NCBI RefSeq assembly: GCF_019649055.1
Contig: NW_026570310.1
Location: 62,001 to 126,000 of the forward strand
Length of the DNA: 64,000 bases
DNA from: Paramacrobiotus metropolitanus
Taxonomy: Eukaryota > Tardigrada > Eutardigrada > Parachela > Macrobiotidae
Direction: 5' to 3'
A model generated the notes under the pieces. The model had not been told where the DNA came from, searched no databases, and worked only from the letters and a program-made list of their open reading frames with translations. Made by a program: the position numbers and the translations under genes. Positions 39,106 to 64,000 of the stretch are shown here, one piece after another. How positions within the stretch are numbered: position 1 is the first letter of the stretch; every line of letters begins with the position of its first letter.

Positions 39106-39111
39106 GGCGAC
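39106..39111. repeat. Left 6-base target-site duplication of the Maverick (GGCGAC)
   Basis: GGCGAC directly precedes the element's first bases, AGAAGAAAAG. The same six bases follow its last bases at 54111-54116. Six base pairs is the usual duplication length for Mavericks/Polintons. Confidence 0.85.
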
Positions 39112-39165
39112 AGAAGAAAAGAAGCGTTGAAATGGTCACCGGACAAACATTAACATCTTGTTTAT
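39112..39165 (+). repeat. Left terminal inverted repeat
   Basis: It starts AGAAGAAAAGAAGCG; the first 38 bases differ from the complement of the right end only at two adjacent positions (GG against AA). After a gap of about 20 bases relative to the right copy, AACATCTTGTTTA is also shared. Short for a Maverick, whose repeats are often hundreds of bases. Confidence 0.85.
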
Positions 39166-39540
39166 GAATAACAGACATATTATTATTTACAAACACTCTA
39201 AACATCAATAATTCGGCGTAGCTACAATAAACAATAACATCTGGAACACAACAATAATTACGGCTATAATTACAACAACGTTAAACCCATTACAACAACA
39301 AACTTATGTTTTTATTTAGTTAGCTATATGGTTATAATAATAATCCTAACAGTAAATTACGTTATTAACTTAAATTCTTAAACAATAATAATAACTATCG
39401 CAATAGTATTCTGTATTTAACTATGATTAATGTTACCATAAAGTAGTTTAGTTTAAGTAAATTATAATGATGTTAGTGCAGTGGTGTTGTTCACACTAAG
39501 TATCCAGACGTCGGCTGTTGGATTTCGAGTGAAGTTGTGC

Positions 39541-39878
39541 ATGGCGCGCCGGGAGACATTCCTTGAGATGGACTGCCTATTCATATGCCGACCTAATTCA
39601 GCATGACGCTGTCCGGTGACCTACTTTTTCATGGAATGTCTCCCGACGCACCATACACATAGTTATAACAATCAGTTAATGCTGGACGCCCGTTTTGTTA
39701 CCTTACTCCGCCTTATCACACCTGTGATACACTGCGAGAGATGAAAAGGCGGTGCTGGCCACCGTATTTTCTACCCAATAGTGTCTATGTGCTGAGATGG
39801 GCACTCATTGGCTGTAAAATCGGAATGTTTACACTCCCCTTTTGTCTCTCCACAGTATATCACAGGTGCGATAAGGCG
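39541..39878. repeat. Two neighbouring imperfect inverted repeats near the left terminus
   Basis: Pair 1: ATGGCGCGCCGGGAGACATT at 39541-39562 against the complement of 39633-39654 (20 of 22 match). Pair 2: CGCCTTATCACACCTGTGAT at 39709-39749 against the complement of 39838-39878 (roughly 85 percent). The second pair carries CTCCGCC and AAAAGGCGG boxes, and ATTGGCTGTAAAATCGG lies between its arms. It could be a MITE, an origin-type structure or paired promoters. Confidence 0.65.
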
Positions 39879-40274
39879 TGGCGATGATCAGATCGGTAAA
39901 CTGACGCCCTAAGAACTGCTTGCACGAGAACCACTTTGTGCAACGATAATGACTACTGTATATAAATTTTCTACACAGTAGCTTTGTCTGTTTAATTTAT
40001 GTATGTACTCGTATAGTTATACTGTGTACGTACTGTGTATGCATTTTGTATGTACAGTAATCTGTTTATTGCTGTAGTTCACCGTATGTTTACAATTTTT
40101 TGTGTAATGAGCAGGCTATCATACCCATTCTATCATACTCATACTGGCTATCATTCTAATAATTATTATAAAAGTTAAGCCCTGGGGCCTCACGAGATTG
40201 TTTGGCGGGGTCCAAATGGACGTACACCTCTTAGCAATGTACTCATACTGTATTTTGTGGGACGTCGGTTTTAC

Positions 40275-40836
40275 ATGGCTAGTGGACAGACTAATAAAGC
40301 GTATTCGATCCTGGTACGTTACATTGTGAGGGAGAACACGGTTGCTGTACCACCCTGGAAACTGATAACTGATGCTGGAAAAGCTAAGGATACGGCACCC
40401 AAGGGGTTTTTTTCTTGATCTTATTGAACTGGATTTTCGGACAACTACGTCGTTATTCTACACTATACGGTAAAAATAGGTACCTACTACTGACTATTTC
40501 GATGCGGTTTGTGTTGTATGGTAGCCAACTGTATTTCGACTTAAGTTCTCATTGATAGACTGTGCACAACTTCTCATTGATACACTCACTTAAGTTCTCA
40601 TAGATTCTCATTGATGACTGTGCAGATACAGTATTGCCCGAATTTTAATGTCAGTGACTGAAAATATTACTGCTTACTGTAAAGTCGGCAGGATTTTTTT
40701 GCTGTCAAAGGCAGTTTATTGTGACAGGCTTGGTAACGCGTTCAGTTATTATGATGTGGTCCTGATGGACTACGAGACTGTCAGGTGTGGGAGACACCTG
40801 AAAATTATTTTATTCCAAAACAGAAGTACGGGATAA
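40275..40836 (+). CDS. Uncharacterised two-exon gene inside the Maverick
   Basis: Exon 1 starts at ATG 40275 (MASGQTNKAYSILVRYIVRE) and passes a T7 run near 40410 where the frame changes; it continues DLIELDFRTTTSLFYTIR to a donor CG|GTAAAA near 40470. Exon 2 follows an acceptor GACTGTGCAG near 40625, runs in an open frame (MSVTENITAYCKVGRIFLL) and stops at TAA 40834-40836. The composition is protein-like and the strand is opposite to the capsid block. No domain is recognised. Confidence 0.35.
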
Positions 40837-40982
40837 CATTCACATTCCACTGAATATAGATTCCACTCAACTAGCTAAAGCAAGTTTAGTTTTTTAATAT
40901 TGTTAACATTTCAAAAATTCATGAGGAAAACAAGTTTTTATTAGCACATCAGCACACAGTACGACATCTCGAGCAAAATCTA

Positions 40983-41645
40983 TTAGCGGCGGTTATGGCG
41001 ATCGCACCATCCCAGGAGCACACCCCACAAGAGCGTTGTAAACTGCGAAGAAGAAAGTATTATTATGATTTCATATACGTAATATCAACAAATAGGTCTA
41101 TACAGATATGAGCGTTATAAATATTTTAGATAGCTTTTGCGTTGTCGCATACCAGCATGACTTGCAGTACCTGTAGATAATAATAATTGCCGGATTTAAT
41201 AAGGGTGTATGATAATATTTGTAATATTTAATAAGGGAGTATGATAATATTAAATATTATAATTACAAATTTTATAATATTATATTTATGATATTTAATG
41301 ATAATTTTTAATAAGGGTGTAATGATAATATTTATGCGACCGTAATAAGCAAGTAGCATATGTATTTACAAAACCTACCTCCGGATCGTCACGAATGGCT
41401 TGATCAATGTGACCCGGCTTGATGTCGGTGGCACGTGCAACTTCTGCCACGTTTCCAGCAAGGAACAGGAGTTCGGCAACCAAATACTCTAGAACGCCGG
41501 CCATGAATACAGATGCGGATTCTTCAGTTTGGCTACCCTGAATCATAGCCTGGTGAATACGGCCAACCGGCAGTATTGCACCGGCTCGCCTGGAGCGGGA
41601 GAGGGCTCTACCTCTAGTTTTTTTCGCTACGCGACCGTGCGGCAT
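40983..41645 (-). CDS. Short, divergent histone H2A variant with one intron
   Basis: Exon 1 is 41645-41379 (89 codons, donor GAG|GTAGGT) and exon 2 is 41042-40983 (acceptor TTCTTCGCAG, TAA); the intron is 336 bases. The 108-residue product has a basic tail, then SRSRRAGAILPVGRIHQAM (the H2A signature RAG-x2-FPVGR), GVLEYLVAELLFLAGNVAE (alpha-2), and DIKPGHIDQAIRDDPEF with LLWGV. The acidic patch is reduced: the glutamates in VLEYL and VAE remain, the third becomes Phe, and the DEE triad becomes DPE. The docking domain and C-terminal tail are mostly missing, as in short H2A variants. It lies inside the Maverick termini, oriented like the capsid genes. It may be a captured host gene. Confidence 0.85.
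41195..41335. repeat. AT-rich tandem repeat inside the H2A intron
   Basis: TAATAAGGGTGTATGATAATATTT and close variants occur at about 41200, 41230 and 41307, separated by A/T-only sequence. The array makes up nearly half of the intron. Confidence 0.7.
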
Positions 41646-42219
41646 TCTGTTACAATTTGAAAATTATAAAATGATTAATGCGGTTGTTAGGGGACAGTGA
41701 GATTTAAATAGTGGTTTGTACGGATCTTTATTCCGGATATGCACAATCTGATCTGCGTGCTAATTAAAACGTAGAATATGAGTAAAGGTAAAATAAAACA
41801 GTATTGCATCATAGTTCCTTCAAATGTTTCTCAAAAGTGTACTCTTTTGTTTGCAAACCAACCATCTGCTTCCGGAATAGTGACACACACGCGGTAAAAA
41901 TAGGTCAGTGCTTTTATTCTCCAATACCTTATCTGTTGCTGTTCTTTTGTGACCTTATTGTGCAATTTTTGCGCGAGGTCGGCCTTGCGCAGCCTGAAGA
42001 GTGTACAGCTCGTAAATCTATACCGCAAAAATAAAAAATGTACAAAATAAGTATTTAGTATTGTGTACTACATACTAGAAAAGTGCACTCGCTTTTTGCG
42101 CGCACTGCAGGATCGAAGCGGAGCAGGACTATATCCTAAATGATGACACCCCGTTTTACAGTGGGCACTCTTTTTCGATTATTTAATGCTCTCATTCCAG
42201 CTGGTATAATTTTAGTACA

Positions 42220-42489
42220 ATGACAATAGTGAAATCTCGGCCTCAGGCGCCGGTAAGCATTTACATAAAATTTCGCAATTACGTAAGTGTTTCGAATACA
42301 TGTTTCGACACTGTACACAAAAATCATAATTTCTTCAACTCTAGTGGAAAAATTTATGCCGGTTCATACAGTGCTGTGGAAGGTCACCGCCACAATATGC
42401 ATATAATATGCAAAGCAGTCAATGGCACAGTAAATCTGCTGAATGCGGTAGGAGGGGTTGGATTTAGTAACGCTGGTGACGTTTTATAG
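42220..42489 (+). CDS. Uncharacterised 89-codon frame inside the Maverick
   Basis: ATG 42220 opens a frame (MTIVKSRPQAPVSIYIKFRN; later GKIYAGSYSAVEGHRHNMHI and NLLNAVGGVGFSNAGDVL) ending at TAG 42487-42489. An opposite-strand frame overlaps its first half. The Gly/Val/Asn-rich end could be beta-structured. A further frame at 42699-42911 has a central hydrophobic segment (FSSIISLLSFCYVV). Neither resembles a known Maverick protein. Confidence 0.3.
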   Translation: MTIVKSRPQAPVSIYIKFRNYVSVSNTCFDTVHKNHNFFNSSGKIYAGSYSAVEGHRHNMHIICKAVNGTVNLLNAVGGVGFSNAGDVL

Positions 42490-42919
42490 AAAACTAAAAA
42501 CTGAACTGAAAAGCAGCGTTCCCGTATAGGTCTATCATGTCAAAAATCTGGTGATACCGACTTGGCCGGAGGGCTACCATTTACACGAAATTGCCCTTAG
42601 TAATGCTAACGGAGTGCTATTCCGATTAGGCAGTTTTCTAGAAGGTACTTGTTAATAACCGGGATATTAATTTGTTTTGATTTTTTTATCGCACAGGGTT
42701 GTTTGGTTCGCTAATGGGGCACTGCAAAAATGTCTGTGGGGACATATTTGCCGGAAATTGCACAATTTGGGGTTTTTCTAGTATTATTTCGTTACTTAGT
42801 TTTTGTTATGTTGTACAATGTCAGAAGTCCGGAGTGGGTGTCAAGAAAAGAGTTTCAGGGAACAGTATTATGGTACTGGACTGTGTCTGCAACACCAAAC
42901 TAGAATATTGAATCAAAAA

Positions 42920-43510
42920 TGTTTAACGGAAACCGGTAAATTGATACTGTCGCTATCGGCTAACGATTCCAGTACTGGTGATGAAGCCCATCGCTTGTGA
43001 CAGGTAATAATGCCCCCACGAACGTTCGGTAGCGCTATGTTGCCATTGTTACCAAAAAGCAAACGCAGTAATCTTTTGATCATATCGGGGAGATTACCAC
43101 CGGCCAATATATACGGTTACCGTGCATAGGTGGGCATCCGGGTGCAAATATCACCGTGCATGTTAGCATTTCCTGACGGTGACCGACGTACAGACACTAC
43201 GAGTTATATGTGGCGTGAGTATATACGGCAACCGTGCTGTGCATTTGGTGACAGGTACCATCGTGCATACGTGCATTTGCTGGTGGTTACCCACGCATAT
43301 ACACACCACATTTTGCATTATTCTTGAACATAGGCTTTCGTTACGCTTCGGTCGACAAGGTAAGCCTCGCGCTCCGCGCTCGACTTGTGTGTACTGGAAA
43401 TGTTAGGTTTGAGTTCATGGAGTGTAACTAGTTACGACAGCCGTGTTAATACATATCGATGTATTGCCAACTGAAATTTGTTAAATGTTCGTATATAAAA
43501 CCTTAACGAA
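42920..43510. other. No clear gene; imperfect ATATACGG...ACCGTGC repeats
   Basis: The phrase ATATACGGYWACCGTGC occurs near 43110 and 43221, each followed by a GTGCATRYTAGCATTT/GTGCATACGTGCATTT-like block. No convincing coding frame. Confidence 0.4.
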
Positions 43511-43517
43511 TTACGGG

Positions 43518-44217
43518 TACAAGGAGGGGGTAAATACACGGGAAAGATAGAAAAAACGGCAATAATAAGGGATAACCCTTCACGTGTTGTGCAACACGGC
43601 CAGCCACCAAGGGAAGGCAGTTCTAGTGACACTGTGCAGATCAGTCGTTGAGACTCCAGTCTCGAGCTGTTTCTCCGTAGACTTCTATGTTAAACACAAC
43701 CACCTTCGTCTTGCATATTTCAGAACTAATCCGCACAATCGATAGCTCAAAAGAACAAGAAAAAATTTACAAGATTTTTGATACGAAATAATTCGCCACT
43801 AATTAAAACTGAAGCAAGACTGAACCATTTGAGTTTCTCGTAGACTAAGCATAGGAGTTGGATGATTTGTTTCGCGGAGCTCCATTGCTTTGTCTATGGG
43901 AAACTTAATTGGCTCTAACTTGTCTTGTTTCTCATAGATCACGGCTTGCGTGGTATCGAAAATCTTGTTAATTATTTCTTGCTCTTTAAGATGTAGATTA
44001 CACGGTTTGATTCTGAATTCTCGAAGACGTAGGTGTTTGAGTATAACGTAGGAGTCTACGGAGAAGGCAGCTCGGGTCTCAAAGCATGAATTTTGTGTAG
44101 TGTCGCTGGACTGCTTTCCCTTGGCGGCTGGCCATGGTGCACAACACCTGAATGGTTATCCCTTATTATTGCCGTTTTCCTGTCTATCCGTGTATTTACC
44201 CCTCCTTCTATTACACT
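43518..44217. repeat. 700-base hairpin (foldback/MITE-like) element nested in the Maverick
   Basis: The left arm, from AAGGAGGGGGTAAATACACGG at 43520, pairs with the complement of 44215 downward. Long near-identical blocks include ACGGCAATAATAAGGGATAACC (43557-43578), TGTTGTGCA with CCAGCC and CCAAGGGAA, CTCCGTAGACTYCTAYGTT, and AAGAAATAATTWACAAGATTTT-type sequence. The arms extend about 260-280 bases each, around a centre of about 150 bases. Similarity stops abruptly at AAGGAGGGG outside both arms, which suggests the ends of the unit. A related copy of the inner part is at 8000-8270. No transposase is present. Confidence 0.75.
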
Positions 44218-44302
44218 TTGGTCGCTTCAGGATATTGACATTGCATGAATGAAGAATTAAAGATATACTTTTTCGCATCTGCGCTCACTCGAGGAATACG
44301 TT

Positions 44303-44308
44303 TTTATT
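44303..44308 (-). terminator. Candidate poly(A) signal for the minus-strand capsid block
   Basis: TTTATT on the plus strand is AATAAA on the minus strand, about 280 bases beyond the last gene of the block (44585). Position and orientation fit; there is no further support. Confidence 0.35.
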
Positions 44309-44584
44309 AGAAAAATCCTACTTTCAAACCTTGTAAAATTAAAATATTATTTACTTACATGGATACGGTACGCTACATGGATACAACTCGATAAGCGAAT
44401 TGTACCGGTATTTGAAAGTATTTGAAGTACCCCAGACTAGCAGCTAAACATTTCTCTCAGTTAAAATATTGCGACCGTTTAGCACATTGAAGTCCGTACA
44501 CATAATGTGCAGCCGAAAAGGCGGAGCATGTTGCTGCATTTTACAACCAATCACTTTCCATTTCCAACTGCACTACTACCGGCG

Positions 44585-44917
44585 TTAAAATACTGCGGCA
44601 AGCACCGCCTTTTCTCCCAGACTTGTGTTCAAGTCTAAGTTGTCAGGAATCATGTGGACAGCTTTGTTTAGAGGCGGCGGCGGCGGGGGTGTTTGGGCAC
44701 TCACCGGCAGGGCCGGTGAGTGACCAAACACCGATCCATTACTGAATTCGGCATCACTCATCATCAAGTTCAAGACATGTTTAGTGATCTCATTGGATTG
44801 AGTCAGGTTAGTTTTTCGGGAAACATGATTGCATATCTCAAGAACATTGAATATTAGTAGTACGGAGATCATAAGACCCCAGAAGATAAGTGTTGCTATT
44901 TTTTGGGGTCTATCCAT
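44585..44917 (-). CDS. Small membrane protein of the Maverick capsid block
   Basis: 110 codons from ATG 44917. An N-terminal transmembrane helix (ATLIFWGLMISVLLIFNVL) is followed by a polar region with a Pro run and a short C-terminal helix (LGEKAVLAAVF). It overlaps the end of the protease gene by eight bases, so it belongs to the same transcription block. Role unknown; a membrane-associated virion or entry factor is possible only by position. Confidence 0.6.
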   Translation of the reverse strand: MDRPQKIATLIFWGLMISVLLIFNVLEICNHVSRKTNLTQSNEITKHVLNLMMSDAEFSNGSVFGHSPALPVSAQTPPPPPPLNKAVHMIPDNLDLNTSLGEKAVLAAVF

Positions 44918-45410
44918 TTTTTATTAGTTGCCTTATAAAATTATCGTCTCGTAGCGCAGTGTGCAGGTTAAAGTACTTGTTTATAAATTTTCGAATAAAT
45001 TTGTCATTCACGCCTTTATGCTTGGTTAAGGCGGACATAACATCTTCATAGGAATACCCTCGACAACGTAGAAGTACGTAAAACATACAGTACTGACCAC
45101 AGACTGTAGAATCTATGCTTTGTCGCATCGTATTTGACATGGTAATGTAGTCTTGACCTATCCAGTCTTTGATGTGTAGAGAATACTCTGCTGGGTTTCG
45201 TCCAAACGAGTCAAAGGCTTCCACTGTACCGGGTTTAGTGCAGTAAAATGCGACCCAGTGCTCTCCCGAGGCAGTGCTAGGTTGCGTATTCACGATGTAG
45301 GCACCCGGAAATTCTTTGTCAGGAATTTTATCACAAGGAAAGACTCCAACAAAAATATCACGAACTATTGGATCCCTTCTAAGGGCATTGTCGATTTCTA
45401 TACTGTTCAT
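44910..45410 (-). CDS. Adenain-type cysteine protease (C5 family)
   Basis: 166 codons, uninterrupted. The catalytic His lies in SGEHWVAFY, the acidic residue in VEAFDSFGR, and Gln-Cys in TVCGQYCMFYVL, the arrangement seen in adenoviral proteases and in the maturation proteases of Mavericks. The usual role is cleavage of capsid and core precursors during particle maturation. Its ATG shares four bases with the stop of the major capsid gene (ATGA, 45410-45407). It is one of the best preserved genes of the element. Confidence 0.9.
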   Translation of the reverse strand: MNSIEIDNALRRDPIVRDIFVGVFPCDKIPDKEFPGAYIVNTQPSTASGEHWVAFYCTKPGTVEAFDSFGRNPAEYSLHIKDWIGQDYITMSNTMRQSIDSTVCGQYCMFYVLLRCRGYSYEDVMSALTKHKGVNDKFIRKFINKYFNLHTALRDDNFIRQLIKNG

Positions 45411-46751
45411 GGAGCAAAATCAAACAAAACCTGTCTGTTGTTATTTATTTCGATAACGTTGTCAAAGACTAACATTGCAACACACACCACTCCTTCCTTT
45501 AAAGCTTTGGCAAATTTAAAATTAATGTTAAGATTGCCTTGCCTAATTAGAGAAAGAGCCCCGCGGCCAGTATGTCCGCGAGTGAAGTCAAAGCCGTAAA
45601 TACAAAAGCCACCAGCATTATAATCCGAACGATCAAAGGGTAGCTCGCCCGGACCTTCTCCTAAACGCTCCAGTGTGTCTAAAAGTCCTTCGTAGGCCTC
45701 GGCTGTGGCCCCGTTTTCATAATCTAAATTGTATCCTCGAGTGGGAAACAGCTGGCCGTCGATCTCGGCATGGACATAAGACAGGTTAAAATGATCGAAA
45801 TTAAAGGGAGTTGACTTGTATTCCCCAGCAAAAGAACGACTGGGTGATAGGGCTAGGAACATTACCTTTGGGAGCTGTCCAATCACGATATTCGCCCACA
45901 CGTGTTGTTGCTGACCAGATATCAGAGTACACTGCCGCATCGCAACGCGTTCAACGTGATATTTTGCATTATTGCCAACCAGTTGCTTTGTCATTGCGGC
46001 AAGATAATCCGGAGCTGGTTCGTATTTGCGTATACGCAATCGGGGATTCCGAATCGCTACAACTTTAGGTGCTGCCAGGTCGCTATCGGCAATAAACGCT
46101 AGATTCTTTCGGTTACGAATCAGTTTGATGCTTAACTCTACGCCTGGTATAAGTGGGCGATCCTGCTGAAACAAGTCGCAGTGCAACTTGCCTGACAACT
46201 GGAGTGGCTTCAATGTTTGTATCCACTTTCGCCTTTTTCAGCACCTTCACTATGGAAAGATGATTTTCCGTCTACTTTCTCTGTGAAAATCGGATCTTTG
46301 GACATTTCAGTGTCCATAGCGAACCCACCAGACTTAGTTGGGTTAGCTGCGCTTGTTTTGTATAACCCAAAAGGCTCTCCAAATAAGCGCGAATGTGATA
46401 CATCGAGCTACTGTCCGATATACTGCGACCGCCTAGAGTAACACTAACTTGCTCGAAAAGACTGTGTACAATGTTGTTAATAGGGGCCAAACAGTCGCTA
46501 TCCGTTGGTATGGTTCCAGCTGCATTAGTAACGTGAAGATCGCACGTAAATCGAATATCGGCTAAGCTAACCAATTCCGACTGACATGGAGCTACAGTAA
46601 ATGAAAAATCATTGGATTCGTCGGTCGTGGCTTGTGAGGGCCCCAAATAATAATCTCTGGTATTCCATCGTTCCGTTAGTGTTGAAGGTAAGTAGAATAA
46701 GTGACTCTCTAACAACATTGATGGCTCTGAGCCGTTTTCTATAAGCGCCAT
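45407..46751 (-). CDS. Major capsid protein (double jelly roll), two reading-frame breaks
   Basis: The N-terminal jelly roll is read from 46751 (FTVAPCQSELVSLADIRF, SVTLGGRSISD). The C-terminal one is read to 45407 (GKLHCDLFQQDRPLIPGVE, GFCIYGFDFT, EGVVCVAMLVFDNVIEI). Homologues are often annotated F54H12.2-like in invertebrate genomes. About 448 codons fit the shorter invertebrate version. Two frame changes lie at a T4 run (46356-46359) and a T5 run (46234-46238), with no internal stop in the implied frame. Role: hexon-like trimers of the capsid shell. It lies between PX and the protease. Confidence 0.85.
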
Positions 46752-46796
46752 TGCTACAGTTTGTCTTTTATCGCGTCAATTGCTCGTTGCTTCTTA

Positions 46797-47122
46797 CTAA
46801 TGCTGACTATTTTTTCTTTCGTCCCTTAATGCCTGAGCCGCTTTGTTGACGTATTTTTCACTGACGTGCTCGACAGCTTTATCGATGGCTGATTCTACCG
46901 CTTTCGAGGCAAATGTCTTCATGTGTGGTTGGGCGGTAGCAATCATGTTGTTGATGTGAGGTGCAGCCTTACTAAACAACCCCGCGCAAATCCTATGATG
47001 CGACCCCAAAAGCTGCCACCCGTCATTGGTGCACCGCGGTAAACGGGCATTCCGTAACCGTGCTGACGATTGAATATTTGAATGTAGCGAGATTCATCGA
47101 ATTTAAGTTCTTGGAGTACCAT
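46797..47122 (-). CDS. PX/core-type basic amphipathic protein, one break
   Basis: It starts at ATG 47122, overlapping the penton C-terminus by 20 bases. The N-terminal part has GYGMPVYRGAPMTGGSFWG, which resembles the Gly-rich cleavage-site region of Maverick PX and adenoviral core proteins. After a frame change at a C4 run (46980-46983) an amphipathic helical region follows (KAAPHINNMIATAQPHMK, SAIDKAVEHVSEKYVNKAAQ) and it stops at 46797. The likely role is DNA condensation or membrane interaction inside the particle; processing by the adjacent protease is inferred. Confidence 0.65.
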
Positions 47123-47865
47123 TTTTAGTGTTTTTCAGTCGGAAGTGTAGTTTGATTATTGCAGTACCTGGATGGAAAAACACTTCATTACCTAAATCAT
47201 CGCATACTTTAATTTCAACTGTTTGGAACGTATGACGGGCTATAGGTACGTAGTGAGGGCTTTCAAAACGGATGCACGTATCTTCAAACGAGCTCGCTTG
47301 CGTTGATATCGTGCGCAACAAAGGAACCATAGCATCCCACCACTAGACCGTATTCAATGATGTCACAGTAGACGTGTACAATGCGATTATGTTTCCCCGG
47401 GTGGAGGACATAAGTAGGGCTATCACTGCCCGTATAACTGTAGTCTTGCAGCAAACCTAAAGCACGGGTATACTCTGCACCGTGGAACGTCAGGGTGGTG
47501 TCTGGTCTGATACTTAGTTCAGAGGAGTTACCACTGACTACGATATGACCATATAAAACTGGTTCATCATCCGTCGCGCCATCACGCAAAAGCACATTAA
47601 CAGCGTGTATTAACCGGTTTTCGTCCGGATATGCTTTTCACTTAAAAACGAGTCTCCCGAGTGGGATAATTAGTTCGCGCAATACCAACCACTAAGCCGC
47701 TATTAAATTTTAACTGCATAGGAGGAAGTATTAATTCTGATAACGCAACTTCCCAGGTACCGTCCAGATCCACTGCCCTGGCTAATAAAGTTGTGAAATG
47801 TCCGGGACAGTTTTTGGATACAAATCACGAGACGCCGAAGATGGCAGTGTCAAGTAAAAACTCAT
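47103..47865 (-). CDS. Minor capsid protein (penton, single jelly roll), breaks
   Basis: ATG at 47865 overlaps the integrase stop (ATGA). Its start MSFYLTLPSSASRDLYP is characteristic of Maverick pentons. The middle shows AVDLDGTWEVALSELILPP. The C-terminus (SPHYVPIARHTFQTVEIKV then FFHPGTAIIKLHFRLK) is the conserved penton end. Frame changes fall at a T5 run (47811-47815) and a CCC run (47335-47337). A TAA within 47638-47644 splits the middle in one frame. Role: pentamers at capsid vertices. Confidence 0.8.
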
Positions 47866-48918
47866 TTTAATTCGTTTGCGTTTTCCCAAGAGTCATACGC
47901 GGGGCCGTAGCCATACCAACGTACCAGATATTGTTTTTTACCCTTGTGTGTGCGCTCCCTTAATATCCTAGAAATGCGATGGTATGGCCTCTCAGTCATT
48001 ACAAATTTTGACAGTTCGGAAGCATAGAAGTGTCCGTCGATTGCTTCACCAGCTAGGTCTTCGATAGCATACAAAAAATGGCTTTTATGTTTTAAAACTC
48101 TGACTACTTTAAAAATTTCTTCCGTGTAATTTGTTTCGTAACCTTTTTCGAACGTGTTTTTCTTTTGGCAATTCGCACATGGTCGCCAGCTGTAAATGCG
48201 GGCCCCTTTGATTTCTTTTGTTCGCTGAGCATACGTTCAAGGATAGAGTTGCTCTCGTTTACTCCAACGTTTTCTGGAGCATAACCGGTTGAAGAATGCA
48301 CAGTGCTATTATACCCTTGCATTATCTGTGGCAAAACGTCTATGTATCGATATGTGTTTTTTCAGTCATGTATACGTACATACGGTTTTTAATGGTACGG
48401 TTGAGTCGTTCTACCATTGCGCATTTTACATCATCATTTCGAGTAGTAAAAAAGGTTACATTACATTCTTTAAAAAATGCACGCATTTCTCTTCCAACAA
48501 ATTCTTTACCGTTATCACTTTGACAGCGCAGTGGCGGACTGCATTGTTTGTAAATTGTGCTGAGCGCTGCAGCAATTTCTGGCGGCTTTTTTGACTTCAC
48601 TGGCTCCGCCCAACCATATCTGGAGAAACAATCAACACACGTCAGCACGTAATTAAAACCATCGTTTTCTTTACGAAACTTTTGCATATCCATCAAGTCA
48701 ATTTGGTGTTGGTCTCCTACATTTACTGATATAATTTTTCTTCGTTTAAACTTTGAGCGGTATGCTTTATGTTGTGTATACGCGTCCTTAGACTGTAAGT
48801 ATTGTTCAACTTGCTGACGTGTATAATTATGTTTTTGAGCTTCTTTAAACAGACGCTCAACTCCTCCAAGGCTACCGGGGTTCCCGGCATCCAGGTAAAT
48901 TTCATCTAGTGTTACCAT
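47862..48918 (-). CDS. Maverick retroviral-like integrase with C-terminal chromodomain, breaks
   Basis: ATG 48918 lies one base after the stop of the preceding gene. The zinc-binding and core parts run to 48340, with catalytic Asp in HQIDLMDM, Asp in CQSDNGKEF and Glu in MVERLNRTIK. The C-terminal chromodomain (ISRILRERTHKGKKQYLVRW, then YGPAYDSWENANE) is at 48000-47865. Frame changes fall near T runs at 48357-48362 and 48144-48148. It inserts the element into DNA and makes the 6-base duplication; the chromodomain probably guides it to marked histones. Confidence 0.9.
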
Positions 48919-48919
48919 T

Positions 48920-50449
48920 TTAAGCAAAGTTTAACCACCCTCCAGTTTGTGTTGTACGCTGTTTTTTACGTGGTGGCCCGTAGAACTTTGTTGGGGCTCT
49001 AGCGATTCTCCGCCTATATGTGTTGGTTTCTTGTTCTTCATCCTTTTTGCTACTTAACTGAACATTATTTTTTGTTTTCGCAGGCTGTGGGTTGTATGTT
49101 ATAGCTTTTCTATGCGCTGCTTCAATTGGCATGGGTGCCGACGGGCCCGTTAGCCCCGGAACAGTTAAGGCATTTTCAACAGACAGTTGCGTAGACGTCG
49201 GCAACAGAGCAGTTTTATCGCGAGTCTTACGACGCACCGCGGTTTTAATTGGAGCCAACGCCTTACCTAAAACCTGTAAGCTGGTGGAAGGTCCCTCGAT
49301 GGCTAGTCGCGTACCAGCATACGGTAACGCTGAATTTTTACGTGTACTTCGTCGCAGTGAGACTTTATTTGGTTGATAATTAAGTGCCTTTGCATTTATA
49401 TTTGACGGCAGTGCTGGATTTTCATGGGGTTCGTAATCCAGAACTCCGTCAGGAGAAAACATCAACAATTGGTGGTTCTTGCGGTGCATCTTGTATGCTT
49501 GGTGGTGTCGGTGCAAACTCTATAGTTGGCGCCTGGTTCTTCTTCGGCATGGTGTTACGGGAAGTTTTGGAACACCACGCTTTTAGTTATTGGTGGGACT
49601 TTTGGGGATTTGTATACGTGTTTGACTAAAGTTTTCGAAGGGGTTGGAACATAGTGGACAACAGGTTCGCTCGGCACGGTTGTAGGAACATAGTGCACGA
49701 TTGGGTCCGCGGGCACTTGTACGTAATGCACCAACGGCTCGGACTGTACGTACTCAATTTGGGGTGACGAATTTGCTTGAATTTGCTGGTCATTTGTTGC
49801 TGTACTAACCTGGATACCACGGCTCTCAAGCAAAGGTCCGGTTTGAAAAAATGCATCTTGCATTAGCGGCTTTGCCTCAACGTATTTTGACACGGTTGCT
49901 GGCTTATGCAAAAGTTCCGATGGCAAGGTATTGCTTTCTATGGTATAGTTTGGTGTCTCGCTAACCGGCAGGCGCGTAACCGGACGTTGGTTCTCCAAGG
50001 CGGCTCGCACCATTAGCTGCTGATTCATGTTATCGCTAATTTCTTGGGCCCTTTTCCAAGTAGATGTTGGACCTGACCTATTTTTGCCACTTACGAATTC
50101 TGATTCCGGTACTAACACGTAAGTCTTCATTTTGTTAGGAACGATGTTAAAAGAGTTCCCAAAACTGGTAGAAGAACTCCTAAAAATCCACCTTTTTGCT
50201 GTAAAAGCTTTTTTCTTTTTTTCACGCGTTAAATTCCGATCAGCTAGTCGCTTTATTTTTCCAACATGAGCACGTGCTTTCGCTAAATGTGTTTTACTTA
50301 ACCCCTTTGGTTGCTTAATAAGGTTCAAGCAGGCTTCTTCAATTGCAGCGACCTGTTTAGTAGTAGAAAATTGAAAAAAACGCTCTCTGCTGTCTGGGTG
50401 TCATCAAACGTAGAGCGTCGATTAGCTTGAGAATTTCTTCTGGCTTCAT
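48920..50449 (-). CDS. Large basic Maverick protein (conserved N-terminal helix module, disordered middle, basic tail)
   Basis: It starts MKPEEILKLIDALRLMTPRQ at 50449. The N-terminal module (KGLSKTHLAKARAHVGKIKR, LADRNLTREKKKKAF) resembles the conserved small helical, Lys-rich protein found in most Mavericks and adintoviruses. Then come a long Pro/Val/Tyr-rich region with repeats of VHYVP (EPLVHYVQVP, DPIVHYVPT, EPVVHYVPT), Ser/Thr/Arg segments and a C-terminus PPRKKQRTTQTGGWLNF. Changes of frame lie at an A7 run (50374-50380), near 49550 and at an A4 run (49456-49459). The function is unknown; nucleic-acid binding is likely. Confidence 0.6.
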
Positions 50450-50552
50450 TTTTCTACATAGATTCTTCGGTAGCCAAAAATATTCGATTGTAAGCGGGCC
50501 TTGTCGGGGGTTTCCGGACGTAAGTTAATTAATAAGTATCCAAACGGTTCCT

Positions 50553-51079
50553 TTATAGCCTTTTATAAGCTTCTGGCAAGTGTGGCATGCCCAGCTGATG
50601 CGCTAGCGTTTTTATTTGCTGTGTGTCGCGAACAGATTTAAATACGACCATATATTGTGAGTTGAGAGAAATATCACGCATGTTCTTTCCTTGCTTGAAA
50701 AGGTTTTGTGAGATGAAAACAACAGAAACGTTTTTGTGGTGAACATCACGGGTAAATAACGCGGATGCCTTAGTAGCAGATGCTATTTCCTCCATTAAAT
50801 CATCCAAAATTAGCAGCGTTGTATCACCTTTTCTGAAAAAGCTTTCGTCATTAATAATGGAATCAATGCCTTGTACAAGTTCAATAGATTCGTCAAAAGT
50901 TGAAAAGGTTTCTTGCCACGTACCGTACGCGTAAACAATACGAGTAGGGACGGGAGTGAAACTTTGTGAAACGTTTTTCAAGAGTTGCAACGTAAACGTT
51001 GATTTCCCAGACATTGTTGGTCCTGAAATGTAAATTGTGCAAGGAGTTTTAAAACGAAAATCAAAAGTGATTTTTCCAT
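50553..51079 (-). CDS. Packaging ATPase (FtsK/HerA, A32-like)
   Basis: ATG at 51079 is separated from the main frame by a T5 run (51071-51075). Walker A is GPTMSGKST and Walker B TLLILDDLMEE. Further conserved blocks are TRDVHHKNVSVVFISQNLF and MRDISLNSQYMVVF with RD-x2-QI. About 175 codons, compact but complete in motif order. It would pump the element's DNA into capsids. The relic at 436-795 is a second, older copy of the same family. Confidence 0.9.
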
Positions 51080-51203
51080 TTCTAAAACCTCAGATAATTC
51101 GACCTTAAGCCGCTAGTTCAGCACACCTGTAAAATCCGCAAAAATTCCGAAAATTTTCCGTTGAAAAGTCTAAAATTTTACGATTACTGGGAGTTTTGGT
51201 TAA

Positions 51204-51730
51204 TTAACTGCAGGAGGTTTTTATCGCTTCTGCAACTGCCTGCACTTGTACAACGGATGTACATCCTAAAAGAACGCAGTTACCCGTATGAAACACGTTA
51301 ACTGTGGCTCCTAAATACTTAAATTTAATCTGAACTGCTGGAAATAGTTCAGGCTCAAAAAATGCCTTACTTACTTCCGGTATTGTTCTGCTTTTATTGT
51401 ATAAATTGGCAAGATTGACTTTTGTACTATGACGGTAAGTGCTTACGATATTTGCTATACTACGTACCTTAATCTCCAAAGTAAAATCATGCAGAAGTAA
51501 CATCAGCTTATAAAGAGCAGCAGTTGCTCCGCTTCATCAACTGACTTACCGCCGTTTATGATGGCCTTGCCGTTCACAAACAGTTGACAGAATGTGTTAC
51601 CATTCAAGCGAAGGTTAACTGCGTTAAAGTTTTTCATCTTAGTAGCATCGTTCCCGAAAACACGGGTTATCGCGTCCAAGTCGATCCTTCTGTCAAACCT
51701 GACGGACAAAATAACGTTGTGTATCTCCAT
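51204..51730 (-). CDS. TATA-binding-protein-like (TBP-like) two-lobe protein
   Basis: Lobe 1 (ATG 51730 to TGA 51503) reads MEIHNVILSVRF, RRIDLDAI, AVNLRLNGNTF, QLFVNGKAIINGGKSVDEAE; this matches the TBP repeat pattern, including the LxF-x2-GK-x4-TGAKS-like turn. Lobe 2 (51503-51204) reads FTLEIKVRSIANI, FFEPELFPAVQIKF, VNVFHTGNCVLLGCT, matching the TBP second repeat with its YEPELFPGL hallmark. The lobes are in overlapping frames joined by TGATG (51505-51501), either translational coupling or a one-base error. Two lobes of 75 and 99 residues give a full TBP core with no N-terminal extension. It probably acts at element promoters; TATA boxes are present nearby. Confidence 0.75.
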
Positions 51731-51844
51731 GGCTGAACACACTAATCGCGACAGAATGAGCACGAATTCTTTATATACGTTTCTTACTCAGTCTGTCGCA
51801 AATAGAGGCATTAGCCTTTTTTTATGCTATTTAATTTTCTTTTG

Positions 51845-52411
51845 CTACCTAAAAGTATCCCAGACAAAGCTGTAGATTGTCATTGGTAAAAAAGACCAAA
51901 AACATAGTAAATCGAAATAGTGCATTATGTTACACAAGTCAAATGCTGTTAGCCTACGTATCCATGGACACTCCTCAGGACCCCAGAAGCTGTCCTGTAC
52001 AATGCGAGCTACATCCAAAAATCCTCGGTATGGAATCTGTAAAGAGCGCCCGGGTTGTGAAAAGCGGATCATCCGCCCATATTTAGGATGGATACTGAGA
52101 AGTACATCCATACAAGCAGGTCCGGCAAGAGTGACCTTTTCCGCAGATTTGCTTGTGATTGCCTTGTCCATCGCTGCTTGGATAGTTCCCGCTTTCAACT
52201 TATTCAGGACGTCCGAAATTTCACTACATCCCAGACGCACTCCTTTCCGGAACGCCTCTTCATGATCTTTGTAACCGTCTGTTTCCTGATCAAAAGCTAG
52301 AACAAGACTGACCTTTTTCGTGTTCCAAAACATACTTACCACATTGTTGACCTTATAGATGATGTATCCGTTCAGCTCTCCCAAAATCTCCAAAGTGCGT
52401 GCAAAATCCAT
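51845..52411 (-). CDS. Uncharacterised Maverick protein, possibly two PC4-like repeats
   Basis: It starts MDFARTLEILGELNGYIIYK at ATG 52411. Two segments show the pattern of beta strands followed by a basic Gly/Ser turn and an amphipathic helix: VVSMFWNTKKVSLVLAF then RKGVRLGCSEISDVLNKL, and MDVLLSIHPKYGRMIRF then GRSLQIPYRGFLDVARIV. This resembles the PC4/ssDNA-binding fold ending in KGI-x-L-x(4)-W/F-x2-L. The C-terminus after FWGPEECPW is hydrophobic and may reflect a frame error. As first gene of the block and neighbour of TBP-like it could act in transcription or DNA binding; this rests on pattern only. Confidence 0.4.
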   Translation of the reverse strand: MDFARTLEILGELNGYIIYKVNNVVSMFWNTKKVSLVLAFDQETDGYKDHEEAFRKGVRLGCSEISDVLNKLKAGTIQAAMDKAITSKSAEKVTLAGPACMDVLLSIHPKYGRMIRFSQPGRSLQIPYRGFLDVARIVQDSFWGPEECPWIRRLTAFDLCNIMHYFDLLCFWSFLPMTIYSFVWDTFR

Positions 52412-52439
52412 TTTTGATTGCAAAAGCGACTAACAAGTA

Positions 52440-52827
52440 GCAAACAATTTTTCTTACGGAACTGAAAAGCAACTGACAATTCAAGGTTTACCCGCTAGCC
52501 TTTTATATCCTCACGACTACAGCGACTGCAAAGTGTTGGATTTTGATTCGCATAAAATCCCTCCAAAACTCCGCCTTTTTATGGAAAGCAATGGTTTCCA
52601 TTGGTCAAACTTTTCCCAACACAAGACTGTAGCGATTGGCTGAAAAATCGATAATTTTGCTCCGCCTTTTTTCCCCTGCAAGCCTTGTTAGAAGGTGTAA
52701 AAGGCGGAGACTTGGAAGCTTCGTCCTTATTGGTATTATATATAAACTACGATGGTCAAGCAAAATTTAGATTTCGGTTTTAGAAACAGGCTTTTATTGA
52801 TTCAGTTTTTTGTCATTAAACAGCAAA
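52440..52827. promoter_or_regulatory. Bidirectional promoter between the IAP and the minus-strand block
   Basis: It holds three GGCGGAG/CTCCGCC boxes (about 52568, 52662, 52698), each with ATTGG or CCAAT 15-35 bases away (CCATTGG near 52595, GATTGGCTG near 52632, TTATTGG near 52726). TATATATAAA near 52738 sits about 90 bases before the IAP ATG at 52828. The same paired boxes occur at 44517-44555 and 39708-39826 in the element. Transcription in both directions is inferred from the divergent genes. Confidence 0.5.
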
Positions 52828-53759
52828 ATGGACATGCGTAATGTGATCCATCGTCTGGCTACGTTTAAACACACCAATTGGGACAATAGTTTACTTCCAC
52901 CGACGTACTTGGCCTTAGCCGGAATGTTTTATCGTGGAACCGGGGATGAAGTTCAGTGCGCATATTGTGACGGTATTATGTCCGGATGGGGTAAAATCCG
53001 AAGCCCAAGGCGGCATCATCAATTACTGTTTCCAAACTGTCCAATGTCAAAGAGAACACCTGAACCCATTACTGCGGAAGGAGAAGACGTCGTGGAGGTG
53101 TGGGCGTCAGCGCCAGTTGCTATTCCGGGGACCTATAGCTACGCTGTGCGCTTTCCAGACATGATGGATTACAAGGCTCGTTTTCTACATTTGCCGAGTG
53201 GCCTGAATCAAAAGCTCAGCATCCCAGGGTCATGGCCCAAGCCGGTTGGTTTTATAACGGGAACGGTGATTGCGTCCAGTGCTTTCACTGCGGACGAGAG
53301 CTTGAAAGATGGGTTCCCACCGATGGAGCATGGGAAGAGCACGCCAGAGCGTCGCCCATATGTCCATTTGTCATAGCACAAAAAGGAGAACAGTATGTCT
53401 ACGACGTTCAGACCAAGCAAGCAAAGGAATCAGCGCAGATCTGTGACAAGGTATCTCAAGCGTATGCGGCTAGGAAAAGAGAAAATAACCCCCTGGAGAA
53501 AGTGCAATGTAAGGTCTGCTTAGACAATGAAGTCCAAGTTGTATTCCGTCCATGTAATCATCTGGCCTGCTGCAATAACTGTTCAGATAGATTGATACAG
53601 TGTCCTGTTTGCAGAACTGTGGTGATTCAAAAAATCCGAGTTTTTTGTGTTAGTGTAAAGTTTCACCTATTATTCGTGAAAAACAAAAAACCAAAAATCA
53701 CAAATCGTCAAAAATACCGATTGCAGTATTGCAGTGCTACGGCTACTTTTGGAAAATGA
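52828..53759 (+). CDS. Inhibitor of apoptosis protein (two BIR domains and a RING), one break
   Basis: ATG 52828 is in good context (CAAAATGG). BIR1 has C-x2-C (CAYC) and HHQLLFPNC. BIR2 has CFHCG, W and EEHARASPICPF. The C-terminal RING is C3HC4 (CKVCLD, PCNHLACCNNC, CPVC). The frame changes at a TTTT run (53181-53184), between BIR1 and BIR2. The C-terminus reads about 35 residues past the usual IAP end. IAPs of this layout block caspases and act as E3 ligases; baculoviruses carry similar genes to keep infected cells alive. It is the only gene on the plus strand at this end and lies 350 bases from the right terminus. Confidence 0.9.
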
Positions 53760-53799
53760 TAAACAACTGTTTCACTTGTTACTTTAAAGCTTAACAAAA

Positions 53800-53950
53800 A
53801 AAACAAAAAAAAGTGATAAACTCAAAAAAATGATGCATGTTATGTTGGCAAAAACAAAAAAGGGGAGAAAAAGGGAGGGGAAAATTTAATCAAAGAAAGG
53901 GGTGAAATGGGTGGGGAAAATTTAAACAAACAAATGGGGTACACCGGGTT
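53800..53950. repeat. Purine-rich tract with a GGGGAAAATTTAA repeat
   Basis: GGGGAAAATTTAAWCAAA occurs at about 53877 and 53916, each followed by AAAGGGGT or AAATGGGGT, in an A/G-rich stretch between the IAP and the right terminus. Confidence 0.6.
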
Positions 53951-54037
53951 GGACGATGTATCGTAAATCAATAACATAAGGTGGTGTTGTGACGCCGAAT
54001 TGTTTGTGTTAAATGCACGTCGTATGCAGTATGTTTG

Positions 54038-54110
54038 TAAACAAGATGTTTATTGTTTGTTTGGCCATCAGTTGTTTGTTTGGTGACCATTTCAACGCTT
54101 CTTTTCTTCT
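54038..54110 (-). repeat. Right terminal inverted repeat
   Basis: The complement of the left terminus, ending ...CTTTTCTTCT. Relative to the left copy it contains about 20 extra bases built of CAAACAAACA-type repeats before AACATCTTGTTTA. Confidence 0.85.
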
Positions 54111-54116
54111 GGCGAC
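54111..54116. repeat. Right 6-base target-site duplication (GGCGAC)
   Basis: Identical to 39106-39111 and directly abutting the CT terminus. Confidence 0.85.
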
Positions 54117-59654: not shown

Positions 59655-60036
59655 GACAGCAATTATATCGGAAAGCTGCGGAACGACATTGAAACCTCCG
59701 GTGTTGTATGCCCAAGTGCGTACCTGCCAGAATTTGCTGAAGAAATTATAAATTGGGCTGATTTCCGGTCCAGAATCATCGAATCCGATAAAATGTTAAA
59801 AACAGAGTGATTTTATTGAAAGAGTGGCGGAAATGCCTAGTGAAGTACTGTAAACGGCGGATTTTAAAACTAATATTTGTAACGCCGCGCGTACTCTGTG
59901 CACGTGTACTTGTATACATACAGTATGTAACATGAGCAATCATGTTATTAGATAATGCCAACACAGCACATTCTTGTTATGTAATCTATAGAAGGAAGTA
60001 TGCCTCCCGGTTACTTGGTCATGTAACTCATTATGT

Positions 60037-61848
60037 TCTACACCAAGTCGAAAAAGATGGAAAGAAAACGGTCATCACCTATGCCAGCAAAGCTTTATCG
60101 AAATCGGAACGAAATTACAGCGCCACTGAGCAGGAGTTACTAGCAGTTGTGTGGGCACTCGACAAGTTTCGCCCATATTTAGGGGATCCAAACAGAACTT
60201 TCGAAGTTGTAACGTACCACTATGCTCTGCGAGGACTTATAAACGCCAAAAATCTTACAGGACGTCACGCACGTTGGATCATGAGATTACGACAATACAA
60301 CTTTAATATCGGATACAGAGCTGGAATAGAAAATGTTGTCGCAGATTGCCTATCAAGATATCCTTTCGACTGCTCAAGCACACCTAAAAATCAGAAATTC
60401 GCCAACCCGTTATTCCATATAACAACTTCCAACCTTAAACAGGAGCAACAGGCAGATAACTTCTGCAAACGAATTTTCGATATCCTTAAAGGACCAACAC
60501 ATACCGAAGCCTACAAGTACCGGCGTACGAGATTCACACTAATATCTGACGTACTCTATCGCATCGCGTACCGGAACGACAAAATGGTTACCTTACTGGT
60601 TATTCCAAAATCGATGCAAAAGGAAGTCCTATATAATGCTCATGACGTAAACGGACACTTTTGAACCGAGAAAATGTATCATCAACTTCATGATAAATAT
60701 TACTGGCCGGGAATGACCGACTCAATATCCCACTACATCAAGCAATGCGTACCCTGCAACGTTAAGAAGCCTCCACCAGGTAAGCCATCCGGCTTTATGC
60801 AACCTTTTCCCGTAGAAGGACCTTGGCACACCATAGGAATAGACTATCAAGGCCCGTATACAACATCCTCAAGAAGGAACCAGTATGTAATAGTTGCAAT
60901 CGACCACCTGTCCAAGTGGATTGAACCAAAAGCGAAAGAAATGCAACAGCAGAAAACGCCGCTAAATTCATAATGGAGCAAGTCATCCTACGTTATAAAC
61001 TACCGAAATACATCGTATCCGATCGAGGAAGACATTTCTGCAATGACCTCTTGTCGCAGTTAACTAAATTTCCCAACTGCAAACAGCGGTTTACTACTTC
61101 ATATCATCCCCAAAGCAATGGAATGACGGAATGCGCAAAAAAAACGATTGCGGAGTGTCTCTCCAGATACTGCGACGACCACAACAAATGGGACAACTAC
61201 CTACCTTTCGTTACACATTGTATCAACACCACCGTCAATGCGACCACTAAGTACTCTCCCTACGAACTTCTACACGGACGGAAAGCAGCATCTGCCCTCG
61301 ACACAGCTTTTAGCCAACCAACAAACATCCACGATCTTGACCGCTACCTGAGAGAGACTACAGAATACATGAAAGATGCACATGAACTAGCCAAACTACG
61401 CTGTATTGATGGAAACGAAAGGAATCAAGTTCCATATAACGAGAGGAGAGTAGCTGCGCAATACCAACCAAATTACTATGTGTATCGCTGGAACGTACCA
61501 CGCATTGTAAACAAGGACGGTAAAACCATCGCAGCCGATACGCGCCTGACCACCAAGCTACTGAAACACTGGCATGGACCATATCGTATTATCCGACAAA
61601 TAAACAACGTCAGTTATGAAATTGAGAATGTAAATGGACAACGGAAAAAGGACGTCGTACACGTTTGTCAACTTAAACCCTAGCACGACCAATCAGATGA
61701 AAAGGACAACATCCAGCTTGCCAAGACAACACCGAAAGAATACACAACTGAAAAGACCAACATCACAGACGGAACACCGAATGACCAAGACAAAGAAAAA
61801 CCAAGATACAATCTACGAGAAAGAAAAATTCGACCAAGCTACAAATAA
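60037..61848 (+). pseudogene. Gypsy RNase H and integrase
   Basis: The RNase H part begins mid-domain (VITYASKALSKSERNYSATE, ELLAVVWALDKF, ADCLSRYP). The integrase has the HHCC module (HDVNGHF, CVPCNV), catalytic Asp in GIDYQGP, Asp in VSDRGRHF and Glu in NGMTECAKK (Arg of the usual ER replaced by Cys). A GPY/F-type end follows (HWHGPYRIIRQINN) and an RYNLRERKIRPSYK tail. TGA at 60662-60664 and TAG at 61681-61683 interrupt in frame, and a one-base shift lies near 60950. The reading frame opens in LTR sequence, so the ATG at 59942 is an accident of the deletion. Confidence 0.85.
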
Positions 61849-61877: not shown

Positions 61878-62189
61878 TGTAACATGAGCAACCATGTTAT
61901 TAGATAATGCCAACACAGCACATTCTTGTTATGTAATCTATAGAAGGAAGTATGCCTCCCGGTTACTTGGTCATGTAACTCATTATGTAACGTCCTAGCG
62001 GAAAGTTAGCTTCAGGCTACTCCGCCATAGAGTCCATGTTCTATTACTTCCGTCTTGGCCCGTATAAGAACAACGCGGCCTTACTGTTTAACGACAGTTC
62101 TCTGACCACCTTTGAGAACTCACTTGTGATCTATAGAGTGTTAGCTGAGACTTAGAAATAAAGAGTTAGTAAGAAGAACCTACGCTACA
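61878..62189 (+). repeat. 3' LTR of the Gypsy derivative, 312 bases
   Basis: It starts TGTAAC and ends GCTACA, giving inverted TGTA/TACA ends, and has AATAAA at 62157-62162. It directly follows the polypurine tract and is followed by the AGTA duplication. Confidence 0.85.
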
Positions 62190-62999: not shown

Positions 63000-64000
63000 A
63001 TGTCTAATCCTGGGGATGATCCTAATAAATCGACCGGCAGCCAAGTGCTGCCGCACTCCAACACCGCTATTCCCACCAAGGCGGATGCAACCGGCAAATC
63101 CATCGTGCTGGATTTACGTGCCCAGGCTGAGGAATTCACCTTCATTCAAGCAACCGGAGACACCAAGCCACCCCTGTTCCGTGGACGCGCGGGAGAGGAC
63201 ATGGAGGGGTGGGTGCGGCGCTTCCACACCGTGGTCACGGCGTTAGAGTGGAAGGAAAATAAAGTGTTACGCCAGATTCCGGTTTACTTAGACGGATTTG
63301 CTGCAACCTGGTATAACAAGGTCAGTGACGGCGGTTAAAAGTTGTCTTACGCCACTTCCGATGAGTTATTGAAAGCTATTATCAGCCGCTTCCAAACTGA
63401 AGACTATCGTAATCAGCTTAAGGTCAAGCTGCGTTTACGCAAAATGAAGCGGGATGAACCGTTGGAAGACTATTTTAATGATGCCATGACCATGCGTGAC
63501 AAGATTAATGCAGACATGGATGACGACGATGTCATCGAGAAGTTGAAGGCAGGATTATTGCCAGAGTATCTTAGCAGACTGGCAATGACGCGAGCTGCCA
63601 CGCCCAAGGAGATCCTCTCGGACCTGCAGAAGGTGTCGGATTCCCTGCGCTTGGAGTCGAAGAATCGAGCGACGGAGCGGGCGACAGTAGAGAGGAAGGG
63701 CGGCAACCGGCCGTGGAGTAACAATTATGGAAAATTTCAGTACGGCGGCAATGGGAAGCCGTTTATGCGAAAGGTCAACAATGCCGGTACAGCGGCCGGC
63801 GACGGGTGACCTAAGCACACTGACTGGCCGGTTAAGCGTTGCCATAATTGCAACGGAACGGATCACATTCAACGGGATTACCCGAAGAACAAGGTCACAC
63901 AGCAGCCACGGAATACGACCCGAGCAGGCGCGCAGCAGGCGCGCAGTCTGTTGACCTTGGACGACGGAGGCCGTGCACCGGCCGCTCCCAGTCTGCAGCT
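63000..64000 (+). pseudogene. Ty3/Gypsy gag, truncated by the window end
   Basis: The best ATG is 63000 (MSNPGDDPNKSTG). The capsid-like part (FRGRAGEDMEGWVRRFHTVV, VYLDGFAATWYNKVSDG, RMKRDEPLEDYFNDAM, LKAGLLPEYLSRLAM) is the Retrotrans_gag fold. TAA at 63336-63338 and TGA at 63807-63809 interrupt without frame change. The zinc knuckle then follows in the same frame as CHNCNGTDHIQRDY, where Tyr stands in place of the last Cys (TGC to TAC). Pol would continue to the right of the window. Confidence 0.8.

Follow-up and report, generated by a model that had tools for sequence, protein, structure and literature searches.

To our knowledge there is no established answer to the question of how Mavericks transcribe their own genes. 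Two adjoining open reading frames (ORFs) on a tardigrade contig bring that question to a single locus: does a small mobile element carry a transcription initiation factor of its own and, if so, where would that factor act? The window, by which we mean the whole stretch of DNA analysed, comprises 64,000 nt of Paramacrobiotus metropolitanus (positions 62,001–126,000 of NW_026570310.1, contig C90 in GCF_019649055.1), and coordinates given without a contig label are positions within it. TBP, the TATA-binding protein, is the factor with which animals initiate transcription of their genes, and Mavericks are virus-like transposons. An earlier note had read the frames as the two lobes of a TBP encoded by a Maverick/Polinton. 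Both ORFs are present at 51204–51730 on the reverse strand, and the motifs quoted for them are found in the translations. The lobes were searched separately against the Pfam TBP family (PF00352, curated cut-off 22.9 bits), and each scored above the cut-off: lobe 1 (51503–51730, reverse strand, 75 aa) with 37.9 bits (E 1.6e-9) and lobe 2 (51204–51503, reverse strand, 99 aa) with 45.7 bits (E 5.9e-12). Solved TBPs are matched by each lobe as well, the best being 1mp9_A (E 7.4e-8 for lobe 1 and 1.6e-5 for lobe 2). The profile comparison that the note had proposed thus confirms the TBP identity of both lobes.

The frames of the two lobes overlap by one base in TGATG (51501–51505), which the note had taken as possible translational coupling. 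Comparison of the 10 closest copies (L035–L044, window copy included) does not bear this out, as the split is common to only 6 of them, while 3 have a single frame and 1 is otherwise broken; in the single-frame relatives the Met at the TGATG place is internal. Coupling as a conserved feature was therefore rejected, given the relatives with one uninterrupted frame and an assembly that, in the accessible text of PMC8277472, is described as Nanopore-based and polished with short reads. The split does not belong to the conserved TBP gene. It possibly arose once and spread by insertion, an option raised by the different target duplications of the window copy and the copy on contig C158, or it is possibly a systematic Nanopore base-calling error in the repeat. 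We read the two ORFs as one TBP gene that belongs to a Maverick family and is split in the window copy, which is decayed and need not yield a working protein.

Uninterrupted relatives give a fuller picture of the protein, as core-only two-lobe TBPs of ~170–200 aa. Four of them score 81.8, 84.9, 84.2 and 96.7 bits against PF00352, with two matched stretches each, and a profile of 32 proteins (two cellular-type TBPs included) matches full-length solved TBPs with E down to 7e-52. In the AlphaFold model of an environmental relative, P0023 (pLDDT 94, pTM 0.84), the order of strands and helices is identical in the two halves except for one short strand. From the sequences and this predicted order we infer that the element proteins would form a TBP saddle.

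The context of the gene is a Maverick-type element at 39112–54110 (14,999 bp), which starts with AGAAGAAAAG and ends with CTTTTCTTCT. Its termini are as clear as had been claimed: 38-bp terminal repeats, identical at 36 of 38 positions, lie between two 6-bp copies of the target duplication GGCGAC (39106–39111 and 54111–54116). Copies on contigs C31 and C158 share these end points within the element and are flanked by duplications of their own, CCTGCA and ATCCCC, so the window, C31 and C158 copies are three separate insertions. The element encodes an integrase (48340–48918, reverse strand; rve 48.5 bits, cut-off 32.6). The candidate packaging-type ATPase, a broken ORF (50553–51014, reverse strand), gives 16.9 bits with Pox_A32 and its longer relative 20.5 bits, both below the cut-off of 22.8, and the adenovirus-type protease is likewise a weak match (44910–45410, reverse strand; Peptidase_C5 17.4 bits, below the cut-off of 21.3); for both candidates the expected family ranks top. 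The probable capsid gene, also broken (45407–46751, reverse strand), is named from its place and relatives only, since neither its pieces nor a longer relative gave a Pfam match. A further conserved ORF (51845–52411, reverse strand), with relatives in the same place, lies upstream of the palindrome described below; it has no convincing Pfam match, and no convincing PHROGs or Pfam family was found for the ORFs beside TBP.

No PolB was found within 39112–54110. A sister copy on C56, which shares 99.5% identity with the window across 2,144 bp around the protease, carries PolB beside the protease (PF03175, 116.1 bits), whereas in the window, C158 and C31 this place is taken by different sequence that includes a histone H2A-like ORF (in the window 41295–41645, reverse strand; Histone 28.4 bits, cut-off 26.4). 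The histone H2A-like ORF is also present in the copies on C31, C158, C41 and C10. As PolB is absent here and present in C56, we regard the window copy as a Maverick-family derivative without PolB, which other elements presumably helped to move. Elsewhere in the window, outside the element, scraps at 1118–1787 and 19974–20141 (both reverse strand) match PolB ORFs of other Mavericks, and ORFs that by eye resemble pieces of gypsy-type retrotransposons flank the element on both sides (59942–61683 and 63000–63809, forward strand; 35009–35977, reverse strand). Within the element, BIR and RING (IAP-like) ORFs lie on the forward strand at 52828–53759 (BIR 52.0 and 61.9 bits, RING 47.8 bits).

The association of TBP with such elements extends across the 169.8-Mb P. 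metropolitanus assembly (533 contigs). Searches of the genome gave at least 150 matches to PF00352, all above the cut-off, with 150 of 493 candidates scored, 114 matches to lobe 2, and 150 listed matches to the ATPase out of 384 candidates. With matches joined at 700 bp, there are at least 197 TBP places, one of which is the host's own TBP. A TBP match lies ≤2.5 kb away in 86 of the 150 listed ATPase places (69 on the same strand and 17 on the opposite one), against a chance value of 0.87 for 2.5 kb; it lies within 15 kb in 42 further places, 128 of 150 in total, and for the other 22 no TBP match is listed at ≤15 kb. Among the matches listed, 57 of the 197 TBP places, host TBP included, are without ATPase or PolB nearby, and direct reading of the locus found an ATPase ≤1.5 kb away in 12 of those 57. 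TBP belongs to the regular gene set of these P. metropolitanus Maverick-type elements, and the Maverick-type context proposed for the window gene agrees with the profile searches, the element ends and this genome-wide linkage.

A TBP domain is cellular, and one reading of its presence here is that the element recently captured the gene from its tardigrade host and carries it as a passenger. To place the element proteins, 77 chosen TBP proteins were compared in a tree with no outside root, in which the cellular rows were judged from names and sequence. The host TBP falls in a cellular group of 13 rows (support 100/99), and the element TBPs form two other clades: clade A, the window type, with 38 rows (support 100/98), and clade B, a second element type, with 26 rows (support 97/94). 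Both clades mix tardigrade elements with environmental proteins and stand apart from the cellular TBPs. Protein searches gave 25, 164 (120 listed) and 119 proteins, with cellular TBPs among the weaker matches; among the matches listed at ≥40% identity, P. metropolitanus is the sole named organism, and eight clade-B contigs at that level are 16–28 kb long. Scans of IMG/VR contigs with alignments of the clade-A TBP, the clade-B TBP, the ATPase and PolB confirmed no relative, which is weak evidence of absence because each scan used two short peptide patterns. A passenger gene is also at odds with the low dN/dS among ORFs of ≥160 aa, the median of which is 0.198, 0.184, 0.142 and 0.145 in four dS bins (127 ORF pairs); in 15 pairs with each ORF used once, it is <0.5 in 14 and 0.71 in one. 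On these comparisons, small mobile elements would have maintained TBP under selection, in two distinct clades. A recent origin from the host gene is highly improbable and was rejected on the tree position; an older capture may have taken place. Near clade-B TBPs we also observed a BIR match (L003–L006).

Selection on the gene leaves its function to be considered, and here the residues are informative. Going by TBP structures, we take four Phe positions to be DNA-intercalating, the Asn residues to be central and the lobe-2 stirrup to be the TFIIB contact. In the clade-A element TBPs, the four intercalating positions are Phe in 21/21, 20/21, 21/21 and 21/21 proteins, Asn occupies both centre positions in 21/21, and the stirrup residues E, P, E and L are found in 21/21, 21/21, 21/21 and 20/21, so that the stirrup E-P-E-L-F is retained nearly without exception. 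Clade B differs in having Tyr in place of one Phe in 20/20 proteins and the first stirrup Glu in 8/20 only. These changes would suit an architectural protein that starts no transcription and bends the DNA of the element so as to assist its replication, integration or packaging, as would the position of TBP beside the ATPase in over half of the listed ATPase places (86/150) and beside PolB in others. Bending alone, however, needs no TFIIB contact, and the near-invariance of that stirrup in clade A makes an architectural role unlikely. Compared with cellular TBPs and TBP-related factors, the element proteins share the two lobes, the contact Phe and Asn residues and, in clade A, the lobe-2 stirrup; they differ in being encoded by mobile elements, in forming separate clades and, in the relatives that were read, in being without a long N-terminal region.

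If the protein acts in transcription, a candidate site lies directly in front of its gene. An imperfect palindrome with TATATAAA in its middle occupies 51738–51809 (reverse strand) upstream of the TBP ORF, where it scores 86.3 bits with covariance model R1, and the model finds it at this one place only in the window; TATATAAA begins 47 nt before the TBP ATG. In the loci examined, TATATAAA/TTTATATA sites (n = 60) fall into 30 (28 different places) that score at least 16 of 23 arm matches and 30 that score 13 or fewer. An alignment of 16 copies (15 distinct) was made from copies selected for having TATATAAA, the constancy of which is therefore by construction. Across these copies 88% of the 27 palindrome pairs are kept, and 11 pairs have changed on both sides. 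Covariation is 0.302; shuffles give 0.165 (none of 500 reached the observed value), and sliding the arms, a control that preserves the relatedness of the copies where shuffles do not, gives no more than 0.084. Of five measures, one (further pair types) was unremarkable, as 78 of 500 shuffles reached its value. The palindrome has an identity of 0.75–0.82 across six lineages, compared with 0.29–0.46 for most intergenic DNA farther upstream and 0.46–0.80 for the coding part. It was also considered as a known RNA, which was rejected, as the two Rfam matches were both far below their gathering scores.

The palindrome is found by the covariance model in 23 of the 23 window-type loci given, most of which are the model's own sources or close to them. 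Covarying arms raise the question of whether it is a promoter at all, or a structural or binding site (a cruciform, a dimer site or a block boundary) in which TATA is a mere AT-rich middle. Such a site would leave compensatory changes in the arms, and it would agree with locus L071, the one of the 23 in which the palindrome is kept with a clearly altered TATA. It would also agree with a further, TATA-less palindrome that the covariance model finds at the far end of the capsid–protease block in two copies (L049:3831–3897 and L050:4143–4209), where that block and PolB converge; from these two copies, the palindrome may mark both ends of the block or bind a factor with another or additional role. 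On the other hand, TATATAAA is retained in 21 of the 23 loci found by the palindrome, and in the window it lies 47 nt ahead of the start codon. A pattern of the left arm plus TATA has 57 matches in the genome (control 1), and 52 of them lie ≤1.5 kb upstream of a same-strand TBP match, with five that do not. We consider the non-promoter reading possible, though not probable. In the 12 clade-B TBP loci given, the covariance model found no palindrome within ~1.5 kb on either side (12/12), and a promoter model based on the palindrome does not cover clade B. Directly upstream of the clade-B TBP, and overlapping its start, there is a conserved ORF (L014:1736–2194, L007:1679–2182, L028:1679–2182 and L003:1740–2177, all reverse strand), for which no Pfam or PHROGs family was found in those tested. 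Upstream of window-type TBPs, ORFs that by eye resemble ADP-ribosylglycohydrolases were seen in L056 (1–1168), L057 (530–1210) and L070 (1–561), all on the reverse strand.

We propose, with a probability of roughly 60%, that the element TBP is the element's own initiation factor at the palindromic TATA box and recruits host RNA polymerase II via TFIIB. In this model, TBP would bind the palindromic TATA box that precedes its own gene, and its lobe-2 stirrup would contact host TFIIB. Host RNA polymerase II would then be brought to the same-strand block that holds TBP, the ATPase, small ORFs, the integrase, the capsid genes and the protease. Since the TBP gene is first in this block, the loop could be self-reinforcing, or a dimeric factor bound to the arms of the palindrome could keep it in check. 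The earlier note had suggested that the element may recruit the polymerase to its own promoters, and this gains support from the conserved palindrome around the TATA box directly upstream of TBP. Points against the proposal are the split gene in the window, the alteration of one Phe and the first stirrup Glu in clade B, and the 22 of 150 listed ATPase places without a listed TBP. The kept stirrup and DNA-contact residues would also be needed by a competitor, i.e. a TBP that occupies host promoters or ties up TFIIB or other partners, and so lowers host transcription without being linked to element promoters in particular. A conserved TATA palindrome, and the place of the TBP gene at the head of the element's block, would be left unexplained by competition alone, which we regard as improbable. 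With a putative initiation factor encoded behind its own TATA palindrome, elements of the window family may turn on their own genes. The combination would provide a specific and testable answer on Maverick transcription, in that it names the binder, the place of the start and the borrowed host factor, and the covarying promoter copies would be a natural set of putative binding-site variants.

In the accessible text of PMC8097293, the core of vertebrate Mavericks consists of eight genes, i.e. int, ppolb, atp, pro, two capsid genes, pz and pw, with pm between atp and pz. The tardigrade elements resemble these vertebrate Mavericks/Polintons in the 6-bp duplication, the terminal repeats, an integrase, a similar size, PolB (here in sister copies) and, as weakly matching candidates, the ATPase and the protease. 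They differ in their TBP, as TATA and TBP are absent from that text of PMC8097293, where PZ and PM, whose function is unknown, lie near the ATPase in the position that TBP has here. A bolder reading, offered tentatively and with less confidence than the proposal above, is that an old lineage of animal Mavericks carries TBP as a near-core gene, which together with the palindromic TATA promoter serves it as an initiation switch. This would be a minimal, element-encoded way of re-directing host RNA polymerase II, and PZ or PM of other Mavericks may be counterparts that have gone unrecognised.

Virus-encoded TBPs are known from other groups, and the available parts of the respective papers report TBP in 59% of mirusvirus genomes (PMC10132985), sporadically among the mirusvirus-like elements found in an alga (PMC10675990), as wsv303 in nimaviruses (PMC10871703) and in a megavirus (PMC11464507). 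Compared by description, the mirusvirus TBP is likewise virus-encoded and differs in belonging to large genomes with another capsid type (PMC10132985), and the nimavirus and megavirus TBPs differ in belonging to large genomes (PMC10871703, PMC11464507). The note knew of no TBP report from Mavericks or adintoviruses, and our title and text searches of largely open-access literature likewise found none from a Maverick, Polinton or adintovirus. With a Maverick TBP, the range of virus-encoded TBPs would extend beyond viruses with large genomes. Finally, the P. metropolitanus protein P0076 (NCBI LOC129590691 isoform X2) comes from a gene model in which apparent splicing connects a part of TBP lobe 1 with the ATPase. 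By eye, its TBP and ATPase stretches are the same as those of the window family, and if the model rests on RNA reads, the region would be transcribed.
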